Assembly (NCBI GenBank): GCA_003646585.1
Contig: QMLA01000062.1
Span: 1-6,560 of the forward strand
Origin: Deltaproteobacteria bacterium
GTDB taxonomy: Bacteria > Desulfobacterota > B13-G15
DNA length: 6,560 nucleotides
Direction: 5' to 3'
The notes under the pieces are model-generated. The model made no database searches. It saw nothing but the letters and a program-made list of their open reading frames with translations, and was not told the DNA's origin. The translations under genes were made by a program, and so were the position numbers. Each line of letters starts with the position of its first letter. The first letter of the stretch is position 1. Shown one piece after another: positions 1-6,444 of the stretch.

Positions 1-474
1 GCGGCGGCCCAGGACCTGAAAACCGGCACGATAAGGCGGGATCCCTTCGCGATGATCCCCTTCTGTGGCTACAATATGGCTGATTATTTTGGCCACTGGT
101 TAAGGATAGGGAAACAGCTCAAAAATCCCCCCAAGATCTTCGCCGTCAACTGGTTCCGCAAGGATGAAGAGGGCAGATATCTCTGGCCCGGGTTTGGCGA
201 AAACATAAGGATCCTCAGATGGATCATCGACAGGGTCAAGGGAAGGGTGAAGGCAAAGGAGACCCCCATAGGGCTCGTACCCTATCCCGAGGACATAAAC
301 ACCGAAGGGCTCCAAATGGGTCGAAGGGAGCTGGAGAAGGCTCTTGAAGTAAAGCCGGAGGAGTGGCGGAGGGAAGCCAGCGAGATAAGGGAATTCTTCT
401 CCAGATTCGGCCAGAGGATGCCTGAGGAACTGCTGCAGGAACTGGAGAAGCTCGAGAAGGCCCTGGGAGGTTAA
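1..474 (+). CDS. pckG: Phosphoenolpyruvate carboxykinase (GTP), C-terminal part
   Basis: This is the last 157 residues of a GTP-dependent PEP carboxykinase, the cytosolic enzyme interconverting oxaloacetate plus GTP with PEP plus CO2 plus GDP. The frame is open from base 1, so the gene starts outside the window; the ATG at 52 is internal. The fragment carries the family's conserved RRDPFAM-PFCGYN stretch (about residues 12-25), NWFRKD (50-55) and LWPGFGEN (61-68), followed by ETPIGLVP (87-94). In vertebrate enzymes the guanine pocket uses three Phe and one Asn; here F52, F65 and N68 match, and Y60 replaces one Phe, a conservative change. The C-terminal tail after residue 105 is rich in Glu, Arg and Lys and predicted helical. 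The gene converges on the minus-strand operon and its TAA stop overlaps the opposing stop. Catalytic P-loop and metal-ligand regions lie upstream of the window and cannot be checked. Identification is secure. Confidence 0.96.
   Translation, partial: AAAQDLKTGTIRRDPFAMIPFCGYNMADYFGHWLRIGKQLKNPPKIFAVNWFRKDEEGRYLWPGFGENIRILRWIIDRVKGRVKAKETPIGLVPYPEDINTEGLQMGRRELEKALEVKPEEWRREASEIREFFSRFGQRMPEELLQELEKLEKALGG
471..474. other. Shared TTAA: overlapping stop codons of convergent genes
   Basis: The palindrome TTAA provides the TAA of PEP carboxykinase on the + strand (472-474) and the TAA of the NIL-ferredoxin on the - strand (471-473). There is therefore no intergenic space between the two convergent transcripts. 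No hairpin plus T-run terminator is visible on either side, so each transcript must end inside the other gene or by a factor-dependent route. Confidence 0.9.
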
Positions 475-881
475 AAACTGGCCCTCATCGCACGAGTCGG
501 GCAGGTCTTGAGGCAGAGCTCACAGGCCACACACCTTTCCGGATCAAACAGCACTTCCATGCTTTCCCGGTCGACATGAAGGGCCCCTGTGGGGCATACG
601 GCTGTGCAGGCACCGCAGTGAACGCACTGTTCCTCATCTCGCATTATGTCCGATTCAATGGGTTCGACACTCACTCCCTTGCTCAGCAGGTACTCCACCC
701 CGCGATGGTAATCCTCTTCGGTTCCGGCCAGTTCCATCACCATGAGCCCTTCCTGGCGGGGCAAAATTATGGCCTTCAGGATGTTGAACTGGAGGTTGAA
801 CTCTCGAGCAAGCCTGTAAACTAAGGGTTTGTCCCAGGTGCGACTCGAGAACCTCAGCACGATCTTTTTGCGGTATTCCAT
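471..881 (-). CDS. NIL-domain ferredoxin with two [4Fe-4S] clusters (homocysteine biosynthesis-associated)
   Basis: This 136-residue protein has an N-terminal NIL-type domain (about residues 3-76) and a C-terminal bacterial-type ferredoxin with two CxxCxxCxxxCP motifs: C86/C89/C92/C96 and C117/C120/C123/C127. All eight cluster ligands are intact. NIL-ferredoxins of this architecture are the electron-transfer partner (MA1822 type) of COG1900 and COG2122 in the homocysteine pathway known from Methanosarcina and other anaerobes, where sulfide is inserted into aspartate semialdehyde. The COG2122 gene lies directly upstream, which supports that role. I chose the ATG at 881 over the GTG at 884: GGAGG at 886-890 is 4 bases from the ATG but only 1 from the GTG, and the ATG forms a TGATG stop-start junction with the upstream gene. 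It is the last gene of the operon and ends inside the opposing PEP carboxykinase stop. A generic ferredoxin role is the alternative. Confidence 0.92.
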   Translation of the reverse strand: MEYRKKIVLRFSSRTWDKPLVYRLAREFNLQFNILKAIILPRQEGLMVMELAGTEEDYHRGVEYLLSKGVSVEPIESDIMRDEEQCVHCGACTAVCPTGALHVDRESMEVLFDPERCVACELCLKTCPTRAMRASF

Positions 882-1633
882 CACACCTCCTTCAGCTCAT
901 ACTTTCCCCACACCCCGAGTCTTCCACCGAGCACGATCAACGCACCTTCGACCCCATCGATCTCCCGGGCCTTCCTCAGGGCCTTGGGTATATCCCTCGG
1001 GGTCCTGACCATGTTCCCCAGCATTGTGGCCACCGCATCGGCAAGGGCAGAAGAAGGGGAGATCACACAGACGGCATCCGCCTTCCCAAAGCTCAGGGAA
1101 TGACCGACCGTTGCCGAAGAGGTGCAGACACCCACAGCTTCTCCAGGGGGTATCTCTATGGCCAGCTTCATGCTCAAGGGGGAATCACCCGCATAGAGGA
1201 GGACCCGTCGGGGATGGGAGCTCCTGATGAACAGATCTCCCCCGTTTTCCACCACCACTTCATTGGAAAACTCAAGCAGTCGCCTGCCAACAAACTCGCT
1301 TAAGGCACCCGCTACCGCCGCCATGGGCCCAACACCGGCCTTCTGGGCCACTTCAAGCATCAACCTCACCACAGGAGGAGCTAGGGAATCGAGGGGGAGC
1401 GGATGGAGGGACTCCAGAAAATCGGGGTTTTCCAGGATGTAGGCCTCAAGCTGTCCCCTCAACCTCAATACCTCCTCGAGGGCCTCCCTGCTGAGATCCC
1501 GTTCGGCGGCTATCCACAGATCGGTCTCCTTGACCCGCACCTGGAAGGTCCGAAGGCCCTTGGGATTGAGGAGGCGCCTGTACCCCCTATCCCCTCCGCA
1601 GCCTTTTGGCGATATGCTCGATAAGACCTCCAT
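881..1633 (-). CDS. UPF0280 (COG2122) ApbE-like protein, probable homocysteine biosynthesis component
   Basis: This 250-residue protein matches the UPF0280/COG2122 family, distantly related to the flavin transferase ApbE. Visible marks are the family's early YRR...FQVRVKETDL stretch (18-39), an ENGGDLFI motif like the ApbE NGGDI loop (129-136), the conserved VCTSSATVGHSLSFGKADAV segment (169-188) and ADAVATMLGN (198-207). No signal peptide or membrane segment is seen, so it is probably cytosolic. In Methanosarcina the homologue sits with COG1900 and a NIL-ferredoxin in the genes for homocysteine synthesis from aspartate semialdehyde and sulfide; its exact biochemical step is not known to me. 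Here the NIL-ferredoxin follows immediately (TGATG), while COG1900 is absent. The start is odd: the only usable in-frame codon is ATG 1633, which overlaps leuD by 47 bases, has a poor ribosome site (AAAGG directly abutting) and adds about 17 residues before the conserved region. The family call is firm; the first 17 residues are doubtful. Confidence 0.88.
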   Translation of the reverse strand: MEVLSSISPKGCGGDRGYRRLLNPKGLRTFQVRVKETDLWIAAERDLSREALEEVLRLRGQLEAYILENPDFLESLHPLPLDSLAPPVVRLMLEVAQKAGVGPMAAVAGALSEFVGRRLLEFSNEVVVENGGDLFIRSSHPRRVLLYAGDSPLSMKLAIEIPPGEAVGVCTSSATVGHSLSFGKADAVCVISPSSALADAVATMLGNMVRTPRDIPKALRKAREIDGVEGALIVLGGRLGVWGKYELKEV

Positions 1634-2084
1634 CCTTTATCAACTCGAGCATGAACGGGGGCAAGGGCCTGATGGCATACACCCTCCCCTTGCTGAGATT
1701 CACGATCCTCCCTTGAACCACATCCACCTCCATCTCATCCCCTGTTTCGGCTTCCTGGACGGCCTCGGGACATTCGAGGACAGGAAGTCCTATGTTGAAG
1801 GCATTGCGGTAGAAGATCCTGGCAAAACTTTTGGCGACCACACAGGAAACCCCCGCCGCCTTAAGGGCCAAGGGGGCATGTTCCCTCGAGGATCCACAGC
1901 CGAAGTTCCTCCCGCCGACTACGATATCTCCGGGATTCACCTTCCTAGGGAAGTCCGGATCGACCCCCTCCATGCAATGGGAACCGAGGACATGGGGATC
2001 GGTGGTGTTGAGATAACGGGCGGGAATGATGACATCGGTGTCTATGTCATCGCCGAATTTGAAGACCTTTCCTTTAAATCCCAT
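1587..2084 (-). CDS. leuD: 3-isopropylmalate dehydratase (isopropylmalate isomerase), small subunit
   Basis: LeuD is the swivelling small subunit of isopropylmalate isomerase, which with the Fe-S large subunit LeuC isomerises 2- and 3-isopropylmalate in leucine biosynthesis. The 165 residues match the short stand-alone form of thermophiles, anaerobes and archaea. The N-terminus has DDIDTDVIIPARYLN (12-26), followed by GGRNFGCGSSREHAP (57-71), the conserved substrate-phosphate/carboxylate loop. The YLNTTDP loop (24-30) sits at the position that separates isopropylmalate from homoaconitate specificity. YLNT is, as I recall, the usual form in bacterial LeuD, so isopropylmalate is preferred, but homoaconitase or a related dehydratase remains possible. 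No leuC is in the window; it must lie elsewhere. The ATG at 2084 is supported by GGAGG at 2093-2097, 8 bases upstream. The gene overlaps the upstream phosphoesterase by 43 bases and the downstream UPF0280 gene by 47. Confidence 0.93.
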   Translation of the reverse strand: MGFKGKVFKFGDDIDTDVIIPARYLNTTDPHVLGSHCMEGVDPDFPRKVNPGDIVVGGRNFGCGSSREHAPLALKAAGVSCVVAKSFARIFYRNAFNIGLPVLECPEAVQEAETGDEMEVDVVQGRIVNLSKGRVYAIRPLPPFMLELIKDGGLIEHIAKRLRRG

Positions 2085-2619: not shown

Positions 2620-3252
2620 CTATCCCTCCAAAACTTCAAGTAATTTCTTAAGATCTTTGATCCCTTCGGGTCGTTTCCCGTCGCGGTTTATGAGGATGCT
2701 GTTGATGCCCACTGTGCTTGGGTTGGAAAAATCGAATTTCTTGTGATCGCCTATGTGTAGGATCTCCCTGGGGGGGATCTTGAGGAGGCCCGAAAGTTTC
2801 AGGTATGCTTGAGGGTCCTTTACCCTTTTGAAATCGCTTACCGATGATATGGTCCGTTCGAAGTACTGGTCCAAACCGGTCTCTTCCAGTTCCACCTGCA
2901 TGAAGTCGCGGCAAGCATTGGAGAACAGGACGAGTCTGTATCGTCCGCGGAGCCTTTCCAGCACATCCCGGACGTCCCCGAACATCCTGACGCGGTCCCT
3001 GTAGCGTTGAAGGAGCTCATGGGGGGAGCCCGGCAACTGGAAGCGCAGAAACCAGTAACCCAAGTCATACCACTGCAGGGCTTCGTCTCCCATTTCGCTG
3101 TAACTCCTTATGATCCTTTCCCTGGCCTCATGCAGTGGTATTGCCTGCTTTTGCGCGTAGAGTTCAGCCATACCTTCGTGCCAGACTGCATCTGCGAAGG
3201 AATGATCGACAAGGGTTCCGTCAAGATCGAAGCTTATGACCTTAATCTCCAT
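2620..3252 (-). CDS. HAD superfamily hydrolase (phosphatase-like)
   Basis: This 210-residue cytosolic HAD-family hydrolase has all four motifs: FDLDGT (nucleophile D9, acid/base D11), FSNA (S111), a motif III lysine in VKDPQAY (K145), and HIGDHKKFD (D169, with D174). A helical cap lies between residues 15 and about 90, as in subfamily IA phosphatases such as phosphoglycolate phosphatase. The cap has an aromatic-rich stretch (QWYDLGYWFLRF, 60-71) that may shape the substrate pocket. The frame stays open to 3324, but I start at ATG 3252: it places the nucleophile motif at the normal distance from the N-terminus, has AGAGGG just upstream, and overlaps the permease stop by 11 bases. Motif IV is followed by FSNPSTVGIN rather than the commoner ENDIEGAKAAG form. 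The gene ends 2 bases before the phosphoesterase start. The physiological substrate is unknown. Confidence 0.9.
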   Translation of the reverse strand: MEIKVISFDLDGTLVDHSFADAVWHEGMAELYAQKQAIPLHEARERIIRSYSEMGDEALQWYDLGYWFLRFQLPGSPHELLQRYRDRVRMFGDVRDVLERLRGRYRLVLFSNACRDFMQVELEETGLDQYFERTISSVSDFKRVKDPQAYLKLSGLLKIPPREILHIGDHKKFDFSNPSTVGINSILINRDGKRPEGIKDLKKLLEVLEG

Positions 3253-4459
3253 TGCCCTCTGGGGGGTAACCCATTTCCCGCAGGGATTCCTCAAGGGTTT
3301 TTCTGTCGGCCTCCCCATCGACACCGACGGTTTTCCTTGAGATATCGACCACCACCCTTTCCACTCCCTGGAGTTTGCTCAAGGACCGTTCGATGTTGTA
3401 TTTACAGTGTTCGCAATTTATGGCCGGAACATAAAAGGTATATTTCATCTCCCGAACCTTCTCGCTTCTGGTTTTGAGACAGAGGGCATAAAGGACCGCA
3501 GCCAACAGAAAGACGCCGCATATCCCCTTGAACCAGAAGGGCAAGAATTCGCCCCCGGGTGTCAGCAGTTCGGGAGAAGTGCCAAGATACACCCACAGCC
3601 TGTTGAAGGCCCATCCGAGAAACAGAGCTGAAAGGATAATGGAGATGAGATAGATTGCGGTGGCCTTCCTGCCAAGTTGCGAGCAAACGAAGCCGACTGT
3701 CACGGTATTGGTTGCGGGGCCGGCCACCAGGAAGACGAGGGCTGCCCCCGGGGATATCCCTTTGGCGATGAGGGCTGCTGCAATGGGTATTGAGCCGGTT
3801 GCGCAGACATAAAGGGGGATGGAGAATCCGAGGATTATTATCGACTCCAGGAGAGGGTGGGCCTTGAGGGGATCAAAGGCCCTTTCTGGAACCAAAGCGC
3901 TCAGGGCGCCACCGATCAGGATGCCCAGAATGAGCCAGCCACCTATCTCATTGGGCAGTTCCACAAAGGCATACCTGAGGGACTCGCGGAGCTTACCGTC
4001 AATGGGACTGGAACTCGCCGAGACGCATCTCCTGACTCCGGTGGGTTCCTTATCGAAGATGAAACCAAGGCTTCCCACCATGAGGCCTGAAAGCAAGGAG
4101 GCAAAGGGCCTGAAGACGGCAAACAGCGGCCCCAGCAAGGAGTAGGTCGCAAGGATCGAATCCGCCCCCGTCGTGGGGGTTGAGGTCAGGAAGGCCAGAG
4201 TGGCGCTGCGCGAGGCCCCGTCCCTCCTCAGGGTTGCTGCAACAGGTATGACCCCGCATGAACATAAAGGCAGGGGGATGCCGAAAAGGGTCGCCTTGAA
4301 GACAGCCGAAAGGGATGGGGATCCGAGGTGCCTCAGGATGAAGTCCTCCTTGAGGAAGACGTGAAGCATCCCCCCTATTGCCATCCCCAGCAGGAGGTAG
4401 GGGGCCATGTTGATCCAGAGGGAAAGGGAAGCCTCGAAGAAATCCCTCGGGAAATTCAC
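3242..4459 (-). CDS. COG0701/ArsP-type permease with C-terminal HMA metal-binding domain
   Basis: This 405-residue inner-membrane permease belongs to the COG0701 (DUF318/UPF0718) family, which includes organoarsenical exporter ArsP. Eight or so hydrophobic segments are visible, in two repeated halves. Each half has a signature: IPLPLCSCGVIPVAATLRR (61-79, C66/C68) with TSTPTTGADS (92-101), and IPLYVCATGSIPIAAALI (214-231, C219) with FLVAGPATN (243-251). A last helix (about 311-328) leads to an HMA-like ferredoxin fold (338-405) with INCEHC, giving a CxxC metal pair C349/C352. The family transports arsenicals or unidentified metals; the soft-metal thiol pair fits that, but the substrate cannot be named. 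An open frame reaches 4579, but the Gly/Arg-rich extra 40 residues come from the overlapping MOSC gene. GTG 4459 makes a GTGA overlap with that gene's stop and has GGAGAGGAAG at 4461-4470. The next gene starts inside its 3' end. Its place after larE and MOSC genes suggests a sulfur- or metal-linked role (inference). Confidence 0.92.
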   Translation of the reverse strand: MNFPRDFFEASLSLWINMAPYLLLGMAIGGMLHVFLKEDFILRHLGSPSLSAVFKATLFGIPLPLCSCGVIPVAATLRRDGASRSATLAFLTSTPTTGADSILATYSLLGPLFAVFRPFASLLSGLMVGSLGFIFDKEPTGVRRCVSASSSPIDGKLRESLRYAFVELPNEIGGWLILGILIGGALSALVPERAFDPLKAHPLLESIIILGFSIPLYVCATGSIPIAAALIAKGISPGAALVFLVAGPATNTVTVGFVCSQLGRKATAIYLISIILSALFLGWAFNRLWVYLGTSPELLTPGGEFLPFWFKGICGVFLLAAVLYALCLKTRSEKVREMKYTFYVPAINCEHCKYNIERSLSKLQGVERVVVDISRKTVGVDGEADRKTLEESLREMGYPPEGNGD

Positions 4460-4902
4460 CCTTCCTCTCCCGCGATTTCCACCCTGTCCCCCACCCTCAC
4501 CTCGCCCCCCTTCAGGACCCTGGCGAAGACCCCCTGTTCGGGCATTATGCACTTTCCCACCTGCCGATAAATGGCACACCGGCTATGGCACTGCTTGCCG
4601 ACCTGGGTTATCTCCAGGAGCACCTGGCCGATCCTGAGCCTTGTGCCCGGCTGCAACTGGTGGACGCGGAAGTTCCTCACAGTGATGTTCTCGGCAAAGT
4701 CCCCGGGTCCCACATCGAGGCCCAAACTCCTCATCAACTGGATGCTCTCCTCTGAGAGGAGGCTTACCTGGCGTTTACTCCTTTTTTCGGCATGGGCATC
4801 GCCGACCAGTCCGTAATCCTCTTCGAAATATCCGGACTCCCTCGGCATCTTCTTCGTTCCCTTCCGGGAACTCGCACAGATCGCTATCACCTCGCCCTTC
4901 AT
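4456..4902 (-). CDS. Stand-alone MOSC domain protein
   Basis: This 148-residue protein is almost entirely one MOSC domain, the beta-barrel fold found at the C-terminus of molybdenum cofactor sulfurase and in YiiM/MOSC proteins that carry sulfur or bind metal cofactors. Marks are GLVGDAHA (31-38), VSLLS (46-50), GDFAENITV (67-75, the family's FGENITT-like motif), the G-T-LRIG segment (86-92), and GKQC (102-105) with the expected conserved cysteine C105. Two further cysteines follow (C109, C118), which could add ligands or persulfide relay sites. Short MOSC proteins of this kind are common in anaerobes, often near MoaB or cofactor genes, and their reaction is mostly unproven. ATG 4902 overlaps the larE stop as ATGA, with GGAGG at 4909-4913, 6 bases upstream. 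The stop overlaps the permease GTG. Coupling to larE suggests it handles sulfur or receives a sulfur- or metal-containing pterin; this is inference. Confidence 0.92.
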   Translation of the reverse strand: MKGEVIAICASSRKGTKKMPRESGYFEEDYGLVGDAHAEKRSKRQVSLLSEESIQLMRSLGLDVGPGDFAENITVRNFRVHQLQPGTRLRIGQVLLEITQVGKQCHSRCAIYRQVGKCIMPEQGVFARVLKGGEVRVGDRVEIAGEEG

Positions 4903-5711
4903 TTTCCTCCTCCAAAGGATATTCCACTGGGTCTGTATCCTTCAAGGTCAAGGGTCACGAACCTGAAACCGGAAGCCTTCACCTTCTCTGCGATTTCCTG
5001 GCGCAATTTCACGGCTTTTGAAAGTTCTGCTTCGGGTATCTCAATCCTTGCCACCTCACCGTGGTATCTCACCCTCGATCCCCTGAACCCCAAAGAGAGG
5101 AGGCCCTCTTCGGCCCTCCTGATGCGTTCCAGCACCTCCCTGGAGAGGGGAATCCCGAAGGGGATCCTGGTGGCCAAGCATGAAGAAGGGGGGGCATCCC
5201 AGTTGGGAAGGCCTAATTCCTTTGCCATATGGCGGATCTCCGCTTTGCCCATTCCGACCTCCACAAACGGACTCAAAACCGCCAGTTCTTCCTTGGCCCT
5301 CATTCCGGGCCTGAAATCGCGGAGGTCGTCAAGGTTGGACCCTTCAAGGACCGCCCTGATGACCAGTCTTTCGGAGAGTTCCTTGATCTTTGAAAAACGC
5401 AGTCTTTTGCAAAAATAGCACCTTTCTGGTGGGTTTTTGGCGAATTCCGGGATGGAAAGCTCATCGAGCTGAAGCTCATACAGCTCCACCCCAAGTCGGG
5501 ATGCAATGACTCTGGCTTCTCGAAGCTCTTGCTCCAGGTGCAGGGGTGAGGTTATAAGGACTGCAAGGGCATCCTTCCCCAGGACTTCCTTGGCCACCCT
5601 AAGAAGGAGGGTGCTGTCCACTCCTCCCGAGAAGGAAACAAGGACCCGCTGCCTCTGGGCCAGGTAATCTTTCAACCGCTCCAGTTTCTTCCTTATGGCT
5701 TCAAGATCCAC
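4899..5711 (-). CDS. larE: LarE-type ATP-dependent sulfur transferase, three-cysteine (Fe-S) type
   Basis: LarE is a PP-loop ATPase that adenylates a carboxylate and inserts sulfur in making the nickel-pincer nucleotide cofactor of lactate racemase. The 270 residues show the pyrophosphatase loop SGGVDS (28-33), the EGSNLDDLRDFRPG block (123-136), and PPSSCLATRIP (174-184). Cysteines C98 and C101 (RCYFCKR) and C178 form the three-cysteine pattern of LarE proteins that hold a [4Fe-4S] cluster and can act catalytically, unlike the single-cysteine sacrificial Lactobacillus enzyme. The open frame extends to 5768, but the Ser/Arg-rich extra residues lie over the preceding gene. GTG 5711 gives the normal family N-terminus and an 11-base overlap, although no good ribosome site precedes it. 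A TTG about 30 codons in is a weaker option. No larB, larC or larA is in the window, so a cofactor other than the nickel pincer is possible. Confidence 0.92.
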   Translation of the reverse strand: MDLEAIRKKLERLKDYLAQRQRVLVSFSGGVDSTLLLRVAKEVLGKDALAVLITSPLHLEQELREARVIASRLGVELYELQLDELSIPEFAKNPPERCYFCKRLRFSKIKELSERLVIRAVLEGSNLDDLRDFRPGMRAKEELAVLSPFVEVGMGKAEIRHMAKELGLPNWDAPPSSCLATRIPFGIPLSREVLERIRRAEEGLLSLGFRGSRVRYHGEVARIEIPEAELSKAVKLRQEIAEKVKASGFRFVTLDLEGYRPSGISFGGGK

Positions 5712-6444
5712 AGACTGGGCAATCCGGCTTGCGCTCGATCTGGATGGTGAAGACCTCCATGGTCTCACCGTTTATCCTCAAGAGCTTCCCCACCAGGGGC
5801 TCGCCGAACCCCGCGAGGACCTTAATGGCCTCGGTGACCTCGAGGCTTGCCACGAGGGCAGGGGCCGTCCCGAAGACCGGAAAGGGCCTGGGACCCTCCA
5901 CATCCTGGGGGAAGAGACATCGCAGACAAGGACCCCTTTTGGGGATGATCGTCATGACCTGTCCCATGAGTCCGTAAATCCCCCCGTGAACGAAGGGAAT
6001 GCCCCTGCGGATGCAGGCTTCGTTGAGCAAAAAGCGCGTGGCCATGTTATCCATGGCATCCACCACCAAATCGGCACCATCCACAAGATCCATGACGTTA
6101 TCCCGTGTGATCTTCTGCTGCACGGGGACGATCTGGATGGTGGGGTTGAGCTTTGAAAGCTTCTCCAAGGCCGATTGAACCTTGGGCACGCCTATGTCCT
6201 TGTCCCAGTGCAAGAGTTGACGGTTCAGATTGGAGAGTTCGACCCTGTCGCAGTCTATTATGGTCAACTTCCCCACACCGGCTGCAGCCAAAAGCATGCA
6301 GGCGGTGGACCCCAACCCCCCTACCCCTGCCACGACCACATGGGAAGTTTTAAGCTTCCTCTGCCCCTCTTCGCCGAAAGAGGGCCACATGATCTGCCTA
6401 TCGTAGCGTTGCAGGTCATAAGGGGTGAGTTCCACAGGTTGCAT
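5701..6444 (-). CDS. ThiF/MoeB/HesA-family E1-like adenylyltransferase
   Basis: This 247-residue E1-like enzyme belongs to the group that adenylates the C-terminal Gly-Gly of sulfur carriers (MoaD, ThiS) or related peptides. Seen are RYDRQI (13-18), the nucleotide loop GVGGLGS (40-46), IDCDRVELSNLNRQ (63-76), DAMDN (129-133), and four zinc-type cysteines in two pairs, C173/C176 and C242/C245. The region where MoeB and ThiF carry a persulfide/crossover cysteine reads PVFGTAPALVASLE (189-202) without cysteine, so carrier thiolation by this enzyme is doubtful and another sulfur donor may be used. No MoaD/ThiS-like gene is in the window. ATG 6444 is chosen because GAGGAGGG at 6449-6456 lies 4 bases upstream and the protein then begins as relatives do. 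A TTG at 6501 after AAAGGAGGG (6511-6519) would add 19 residues. The stop overlaps the larE GTG. It is probably the first gene of the operon. Confidence 0.93.
   Translation of the reverse strand: MQPVELTPYDLQRYDRQIMWPSFGEEGQRKLKTSHVVVAGVGGLGSTACMLLAAAGVGKLTIIDCDRVELSNLNRQLLHWDKDIGVPKVQSALEKLSKLNPTIQIVPVQQKITRDNVMDLVDGADLVVDAMDNMATRFLLNEACIRRGIPFVHGGIYGLMGQVMTIIPKRGPCLRCLFPQDVEGPRPFPVFGTAPALVASLEVTEAIKVLAGFGEPLVGKLLRINGETMEVFTIQIERKPDCPVCGS

Follow-up and report, generated by a model that had tools for sequence, protein, structure and literature searches.

A thiF-larE-MOSC gene order at the head of a nine-gene run in a deltaproteobacterial genome: a likely nickel-pincer sulfur insertase with a possible shared sulfur supply

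Sulfur carriers and their activating enzymes are known from several systems: TtuC is part of the tRNA 2-thiouridine system TtuC-TtuB-TtuA, and related carrier systems include those of mycobacterial CysO and Wolinella HcyS. Operons combining ThiS, E1 and JAB genes with cysteine synthase have long been known (Iyer et al., 2006, PMC1779556). The feeding of TtuA by TtuB provides a precedent for sulfur transfer from a carrier to a PP-loop enzyme (PMC7138817), and a parallel with TtuA was drawn for LarE of T. maritima (LarETm), in which a CxxC-C cysteine set binds a [4Fe-4S] cluster and which retains its own sulfurs and receives sulfane sulfur from IscS, the latter supporting [4Fe-4S] LarE in vitro (PMC9283937). 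DUF39, NIL-ferredoxin and COG2122 were assigned to a homocysteine pathway (PMC5764234), and NIL-ferredoxin with COG1900 forms the aspartate-semialdehyde sulfurtransferase of Methanosarcina (PMC12068725). We analyze a 6560-base contig of a Deltaproteobacteria bacterium (QMLA01000062.1, contig C62 of genome G000 in our numbering), hereafter called the window, which is one whole contig of a 1.39-Mb metagenome-assembled genome (MAG) with a completeness rating of 68%. It carries successive genes for an E1-like adenylyltransferase (thiF), LarE and a MOSC protein:

5701..6444, minus strand: E1-like (ThiF/MoeB-type) adenylyltransferase, 247 amino acids; ATG start with AGGAGG 5 nt upstream; PF00899, 265 bits
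4899..5711, minus strand: LarE sulfur insertase, by sequence of the CxxC-C [4Fe-4S] type; GTG start at 5711; TIGR00268, 305.1 bits (cut-off 150)
4456..4902, minus strand: stand-alone MOSC protein, 148 amino acids; ATG start with AGGAGG 3 nt upstream; PF03473, 52.6 bits (cut-off 22.7)

The original prediction, made from the letters of the window, had named these three families and described their order with overlaps of 11 and 4 bases. The profile scores bear out the family calls and the coordinates bear out the order: thiF and larE share 11 bases (5701-5711), provided that GTG 5711 is the larE start, the larE reading frame staying open up to GTG 5768, and the larE stop overlaps the MOSC start by 4 bases. 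The unit does not stop at the MOSC gene; it continues on the same strand through six more genes down to 471, giving a run of nine genes with thiF at its head and gaps that never exceed 3 bases. There is, in our judgment, an even chance that LarE, likely the nickel-pincer nucleotide (NPN) sulfur insertase of this genome, uses a sulfide supply shared with other genes of the run that thiF-larE-MOSC heads, possibly through a carrier adenylated by ThiF. We read the run as probably a hub of shared sulfur supply and not as a new cofactor pathway. On the simplest reading, a common [4Fe-4S] LarE of nickel-pincer cofactor synthesis would sit among sulfide-assimilation genes, the E1 of this neighbourhood serving a sulfur carrier.

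In an alignment of 33 LarE sequences, the residues of the SGGxDS loop (S28, G29, G30, D32, S33), the cysteines C98, C101 and C178 and the arginines R213 and R215 are invariant, and the CxxC-C pattern occurs in 117 of the 120 LarE homologues listed. By these motifs the window LarE belongs to the three-cysteine [4Fe-4S] type. R213 and R215 match Arg212 and Arg214 of L. plantarum LarE, which together with Ser180 are the residues named there as ligands of the phosphate of pyridinium-bis-carboxylate mononucleotide (P2CMN); Ser180 is replaced by Thr in the window protein. In a sequence search of the PDB, L. plantarum LarE, at 178 bits, is the nearer match to the window protein, 8cnz scoring 84 bits. 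Judged from its sequence, it likely converts P2CMN to the thiocarboxylated form P2TMN (pyridinium-bis-thiocarboxylate mononucleotide) as an NPN sulfur insertase. The window LarE and four of its nearest kin have an odd end in common, in which RPSG or RASG precedes I/L-SF.

That LarB, LarC and a carrier are missing next to this LarE, as previously stressed, is true of the 6560 bases and says little, the window being one whole contig of an incomplete MAG. The same genome encodes LarC (C11:1289-2389, 388.6 bits), LarA (C147:2181-2747, 183.8 bits) and LarB (C164:2-556, truncated where the contig begins, with 261.6 bits for a cut-off of 175), which rules out a LarE without NPN partners in its genome. 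The window LarE is the sole one found above cut-off in this genome, the other two matches scoring 49.9 and 35.4 bits. Among ten genomes of the order, LarE passes the cut-off in eight and LarC is present in nine; among 395 genomes of the phylum, LarE (E value 1e-45) is found in 272, LarC in 343 and both in 254. The LarE threshold is strict, since the LarE of G003 and G005 pass the curated cut-off and miss it. Among the matches listed, that is, the best 150 per search on which all phylum proximity counts rest, LarE and LarC lie within 6 kb of each other in 6 of the 87 genomes having both, and within 12 kb in 15 of them. A larE gene away from larB and larC is therefore normal here: dispersed lar genes are the rule in this phylum, and their scattering is no sign of a new pathway. 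The NPN reading is favoured because LarA, LarB and LarC are encoded in the genome together with one LarE, LarC is found in 254 of the 272 LarE genomes, and the CxxC-C motif is present.

LarE keeps varied company. Within 4 kb of it in 109 loci, LarB occurs 23 times, LarC and CysK-like genes 19 times each, Rrf2 14, ThiI-like genes 13, MnmA 12, NifS 7, ThiF-family genes 6 and MOSC 3 times. These loci pool flanks of 10 kb and of 1.5 kb with short contigs and include at least two pairs of identical LarE, and the 29 phylum loci among them are best matches and no random draw. On a quick LarE tree (Shimodaira-Hasegawa approximate likelihood ratio test support alone; 46 of 122 rows unlabelled; labels of L033-L036 set by hand), the context labels change 12-13 times, for a shuffled mean of about 20. 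Contexts with sulfur genes and contexts with larB/larC thus interleave, with some clustering and no single clade. A separate clade of LarE from such cassettes is ruled out by these label changes. In several genomes (L149/L238, L091, L093, L135), a gene for the quinolinate synthase NadA adjoins a LarE or MOSC gene or lies close to one; NadA works at a step before the nicotinate precursor from which the nickel-pincer cofactor is made.

The E1-like protein aligns to E. coli MoeB with 177 bits and to ThiF with 175 bits, and its best named models are PRK08762 (262 of 449 bits) and PRK05690 (229 of 266 bits), so that it is filed as E1-like, neither as MoeB nor as ThiF. Two zinc-binding CxxC pairs (C173, C176, C242, C245) are invariant in an alignment with 29 relatives. 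The window E1 lacks the crossover-loop catalytic cysteine: a Pro aligns to the Cys of an E1 from the family f28 described below (40% identity). None of the 30 aligned E1 rows has a cysteine directly ahead of FPVFG, although P0330 and L093 do have one some residues later. Between the zinc CxxC and the EAxK helix, the sequence was readable in 107 of the 120 E1 homologues listed: 94 have no cysteine there and 13 have one, which in 9 of the 10 shown lies at FGC. An E1 of this kind may yet be able to adenylate a carrier, in which case the acyl-adenylate (acyl-AMP) would have to be attacked by sulfide itself.

A small ThiS-type gene ending in GG adjoins the E1 gene, or lies one gene off, in 13 of 29 phylum E1 loci, and four of the five carriers scanned pass the Pfam ThiS cut-off (the fifth, L195, scores 19.2 for a cut-off of 22.5 bits). 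At the level of the order, carriers were found in three of the five genomes with this E1 (G001, G002, G007) and in none of the five without; in G000 and G008, E1 is present and no carrier was found. Among E1 genes of the phylum, 14 of the 150 matches listed contain TGA; in all five examined (L288, L289, L290, L291 and L292, from G016, G117, G145, G088 and G323), a single in-frame TGA stands at the position of the catalytic cysteine, directly before NEAGVLG, DEAGVLG or SEAGVLG. Judging by this position, these E1s possibly carry selenocysteine at their active site; a HesA-like selenoprotein is known.

Within the order, the closest relatives of the E1 gene lie among genes of sulfide assimilation. 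Genes of these loci were named by phmmer with reference genes first named by reading; Pfam later confirmed COG1900 (HcyBio), IscU, Rrf2, NadA, MnmA, MoaA, Mog, CutA, FdhD, ThiS and JAB, and gave wider families alone for CysK (PALP), NifS (Aminotran_5) and CysE (hexapeptide). In G001, of the same family, the order is CysK-like-NifS-IscU-GG carrier-COG1900-NIL-ferredoxin-ThiF-NifS-FdhD (L224), and LarE, LarC and MOSC were not found in this 82% complete genome at the thresholds used. Four genomes of the same order show related arrangements. G007 (L040) has COG1900-NIL-ferredoxin-ThiF-CysK-like-CysE-like-MOSC-145-aa protein-LarE, its MOSC (L040:1948-2772; 25.2 bits, cut-off 22.7) being fused in one frame to a coenzyme A-binding domain (PF13380, 133 bits). 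G008 (L225) has NifS-COG1900-NIL-ferredoxin-ThiF-CysK-like-MOSC, and G006 (L036) has COG1900-NIL-ferredoxin-CysK-like-CysE-like-MOSC-LarE, without ThiF. G002 presents NifS-NIL-ferredoxin-ThiF-carrier-IscU-CysK-like on one contig (L194) and CysE-like-MOSC-LarE on another (L008, L037), and the two may be continuous. The LarE of L040 (L040:527-1332, on G007:C25) is split over two frames, by decay or assembly error, and G007 has a second LarE on C69.

Two genomes of other families, G091 and G019 (L233, L234), show Rrf2-CysK-like-CysE-like-divergent ThiF-family gene-MOSC-CutA-LarE-MnmA-NifS. The name TcdA-like was dropped for their ThiF-family gene, which reaches 55 of 304 bits with the TcdA model and scores best with PRK08223 (124 of 266 bits). 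An Oscillospiraceae contig (L121) bears LarE, a ThiF-family gene nearest to TcdA (158.6 of 304 bits) and MOSC, a weak case because TcdA acts on tRNA. The ThiF-family genes of these three were not counted as carrier E1s.

Linkage of the three genes recurs. Among the matches listed and with the window included, 5 of 66 genomes have E1 and LarE no more than 6 kb apart, 6 of 70 have LarE and MOSC so placed, and 6 of 64 have MOSC and E1; without the window, the 4, 5 and 5 genomes left are 16 to 21 times a rough chance figure of about 0.25 genome per pair, which assumes 3.2-Mb genomes and ignores kinship. The figure for LarE and LarC is 18 times chance on the same basis. By family, these pairings are few independent cases. 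The search for conserved thiF-larE-MOSC neighbourhoods proposed with the original prediction did return such linkage, in G007 and in five stretches of family f28 with a MoeB-type E1; larA, larB and larC, which might have lain just outside the window, are present in the genome but elsewhere.

In family f28, 21 of 24 genomes have a strong LarE match (22 rows). Twenty stretches were examined, covering 19 of the 22 LarE rows plus one picked for its MOSC-E1 pair, with G035:C14, G205:C8 and G395 outside this set. Genes for E1, a ThiI-like PP-loop protein and LarE are consecutive in 16 of the 19 larE stretches (L268-L284), and five of those 16 also have MOSC and Mog at a distance of some 6 kb or less. 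Because the ThiI-like protein bears an NFACT-R_2 RNA-binding domain, the f28 E1 may have its role in the thiolation of tRNA; the arrangement looks like a unit for carrier-dependent tRNA thiolation. On G035:C14, the order is ThiS (41.1 bits, ending GGGR)-E1-Prok-JAB-LarE; this E1 has the catalytic cysteine and scores 277 bits with the MoeB subfamily model (cut-off 266). The LarE of G035:C14 groups on the tree with LarE linked to larB/larC (L075, L170), and by this placement it is likely an NPN enzyme. On G205:C8, also of f28, a CysK-like gene is a neighbour of LarE.

The MOSC protein has a CHxxC...C pattern whose three cysteines are invariant in 32 aligned rows, the pattern occurring in all 120 homologues listed. 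A sequence search of the PDB gave no match up to E 0.1. Its structure model (predicted local distance difference test score 89.8) has as nearest solved folds YuaD, YiiM and, more weakly, mARC (1oru, 1o65 and 5yhh; E 2.4e-7 or better), and its sequence matches the MOSC half of PRK14499 MoaC/MOSC. In the phylum, MoaA or Mog is found near MOSC in 15 of the 29 best-matching loci, which are no random draw. The genome has a second MOSC on C103 (L041, L002), where MoaA is followed by a MoaC-MOSC fusion clipped by the contig end. An open frame joining FdhD (225.7 bits) to a terminal CutA1 piece (47.4 bits) lies directly after a MOSC gene at L133:1946-2827, and a CutA gene likewise separates MOSC from LarE in G091 and G019.

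The other genes of the run are as follows:

3242..4459, minus strand: ArsP_1 permease with a C-terminal HMA domain, SO_0444 Cu/Zn efflux family; NF033936, 336 bits (cut-off 300)
2620..3252, minus strand: HAD-family hydrolase; PF00702/PF13419
2042..2617, minus strand: YfcE-type phosphoesterase; TIGR00040, 57.1 bits (cut-off 56.25)
1587..2084, minus strand: LeuD/HacB-like small subunit; TIGR02087, 227 bits (cut-off 109)
881..1633, minus strand: UPF0280/COG2122-type protein (PRK04334), likely of homocysteine synthesis; NF003323, 293.6 bits (cut-off 271)
471..881, minus strand: NIL-domain ferredoxin, last gene of the run, likely of homocysteine synthesis; PF09383 NIL and 4Fe-4S

PRK04334 corresponds to COG2122, and this gene and that of the NIL-ferredoxin likely act in the formation of homocysteine with sulfide as the sulfur source. 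The permease may begin at GTG 4459, which makes a second 4-base overlap, with MOSC. On the plus strand, positions 1-474 hold the 3' part of a GTP-type phosphoenolpyruvate carboxykinase gene, convergent with the end of the nine-gene run and overlapping it by 4 bases. Promoter and terminator scans of the window gave 1 and 3 minus-strand sites, below the counts for shuffled sequences, and are uninformative.

The route that we propose would start with the E1, which would turn the GG terminus of a ThiS-like carrier into an acyl-AMP. Sulfide would attack this acyl-AMP directly, so that no E1 cysteine would be needed. From the resulting thiocarboxylate, or from sulfide itself, sulfur would pass to CysK-type enzymes and to the cluster of LarE, at its open iron. 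The enzyme would then adenylate P2CMN and pass sulfide on twice to yield P2TMN, into which LarC would insert nickel; MOSC would most likely serve a molybdenum-cofactor branch of the same sulfur supply. In favour of the carrier step, GG carriers lie by E1 genes, the E1 family has no catalytic cysteine, the sulfide-assimilation order recurs (L040, L224, L225), E1 and LarE are linked in f28 and G035, and TtuB and TtuA set a precedent.

Several points weigh against this proposal. No ThiS/MoaD-type carrier was found in the 68% complete genome itself, and the alignment used in the carrier search included the carriers of G001 and G002, the match in G007 being weak (29.4 bits) and on another contig. 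NifS is by LarE in 7 of the 109 loci, and a ThiF-family gene of any kind in 6; LarETm itself was fed by a cysteine desulfurase (PMC9283937). The f28 E1s mostly keep the catalytic cysteine and the one compared is 40% identical to the window E1, and they therefore form another subgroup; adjoining a ThiI-like gene, they may serve that protein rather than LarE. Lastly, no LarC was seen in 18 of the 272 LarE-bearing genomes.

It is possible, with a probability well short of even, that the three genes are neighbours without shared chemistry, joined simply as sulfur genes: LarE would use a desulfurase or free sulfide, E1 would serve a cysteine or homocysteine carrier, and MOSC the molybdenum cofactor. 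The mixed neighbours of LarE and the MoaA or Mog genes by MOSC fit such an account, as does the E1 of G001, which sits beside a carrier and a CysK-like gene in a genome where no LarE above cut-off was found. However, the enrichment of all three pairings over the rough chance figure and the conservation of E1-ThiI-like-LarE in f28 speak against it. It appears improbable that, as originally suggested, the three proteins make up a new pathway for the sulfuration of some compound distinct from the NPN precursor. The grouping does recur, the 18 LarE genomes without LarC include G091 with its consecutive ThiF-family gene, MOSC, CutA and LarE, and the window LarE shares its unusual end with four of its nearest kin; yet all NPN genes are present in the genome with a single LarE, both P2CMN-binding arginines are conserved, and contexts interleave on the tree, leaving little support for a different substrate.

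We give equally little credence to a molybdenum-cofactor unit, in which E1 would be a MoeB acting on MoaD, MOSC would handle the cofactor and LarE would be a passenger. The top NCBIfam models of the E1 are of MoeB type, though below their cut-offs, and the likeness of MOSC to PRK14499 and its phylum-wide neighbours point the same way, but the genome has its other, MoaC-fused MOSC by MoaA, and within the order the E1 genes most closely related to that of the window have NIL-ferredoxin, COG1900, NifS and CysK-like genes as neighbours. A wider form of the carrier-fed proposal seems rather doubtful to us, slightly more so with the ThiF-family genes of G091, G019 and the Oscillospiraceae contig not counted: a thiocarboxylated ubiquitin-like carrier would be the natural donor of [4Fe-4S] LarE, and NPN, cysteine, tRNA thiolation and molybdenum-cofactor synthesis would share one relay in these anaerobes, with the G035 and f28 orders as its clearest forms and the window as a variant whose E1 has no such cysteine. 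E1-LarE linkage, once with carrier and JAB, names a concrete candidate for the donor that supplies these LarE enzymes in nature. No report of a carrier-fed LarE was found in the open-access papers searched, among them PMC11796402, PMC8584467, PMC7583248 and PMC11770544. What is new here is the recurrence of MoeB-type E1 genes one gene from larE, once as ThiS-E1-JAB-larE; with it, the idea that LarE takes its sulfur from a thiocarboxylated carrier, as TtuA does from TtuB, can be put to the test.

Compared with known systems, the window resembles TtuC-TtuB-TtuA: an E1-like enzyme is encoded together with a PP-loop enzyme of, by its motifs, the tri-cysteine [4Fe-4S] kind, and a GG carrier was found in relatives alone, the full set with LarE being found in G035. 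In contrast, the substrate of LarE is a nucleotide cofactor and not a tRNA, the genome has no carrier that we could find, and the window E1 has no catalytic cysteine. The relatives, whose E1 is accompanied by a ThiS-like carrier, a JAB peptidase or CysK-like neighbours, recall the ThiS/E1/JAB/cysteine-synthase operons, to which LarE is here added; the term PP-loop is absent from the main text of PMC1779556. As in the homocysteine pathway of PMC5764234, COG2122 and NIL-ferredoxin close the run, and COG1900 (HcyBio) and NIL-ferredoxin precede thiF in relatives, whereas COG1900 is not on the window contig, the rest of the genome not having been searched for it. The MOSC protein shares fold and family with YuaD, YiiM, mARC and PRK14499 MoaC/MOSC, but is short and has the invariant CHxxC...C set. 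Finally, the LarE system of T. maritima is alike in TIGR00268, the SGGxDS loop, CxxC-C, both phosphate-binding arginines and the presence of LarA, LarB and LarC in the genome, and it is unlike in that the window larE does not lie by larB/larC and instead overlaps E1-like and MOSC genes.

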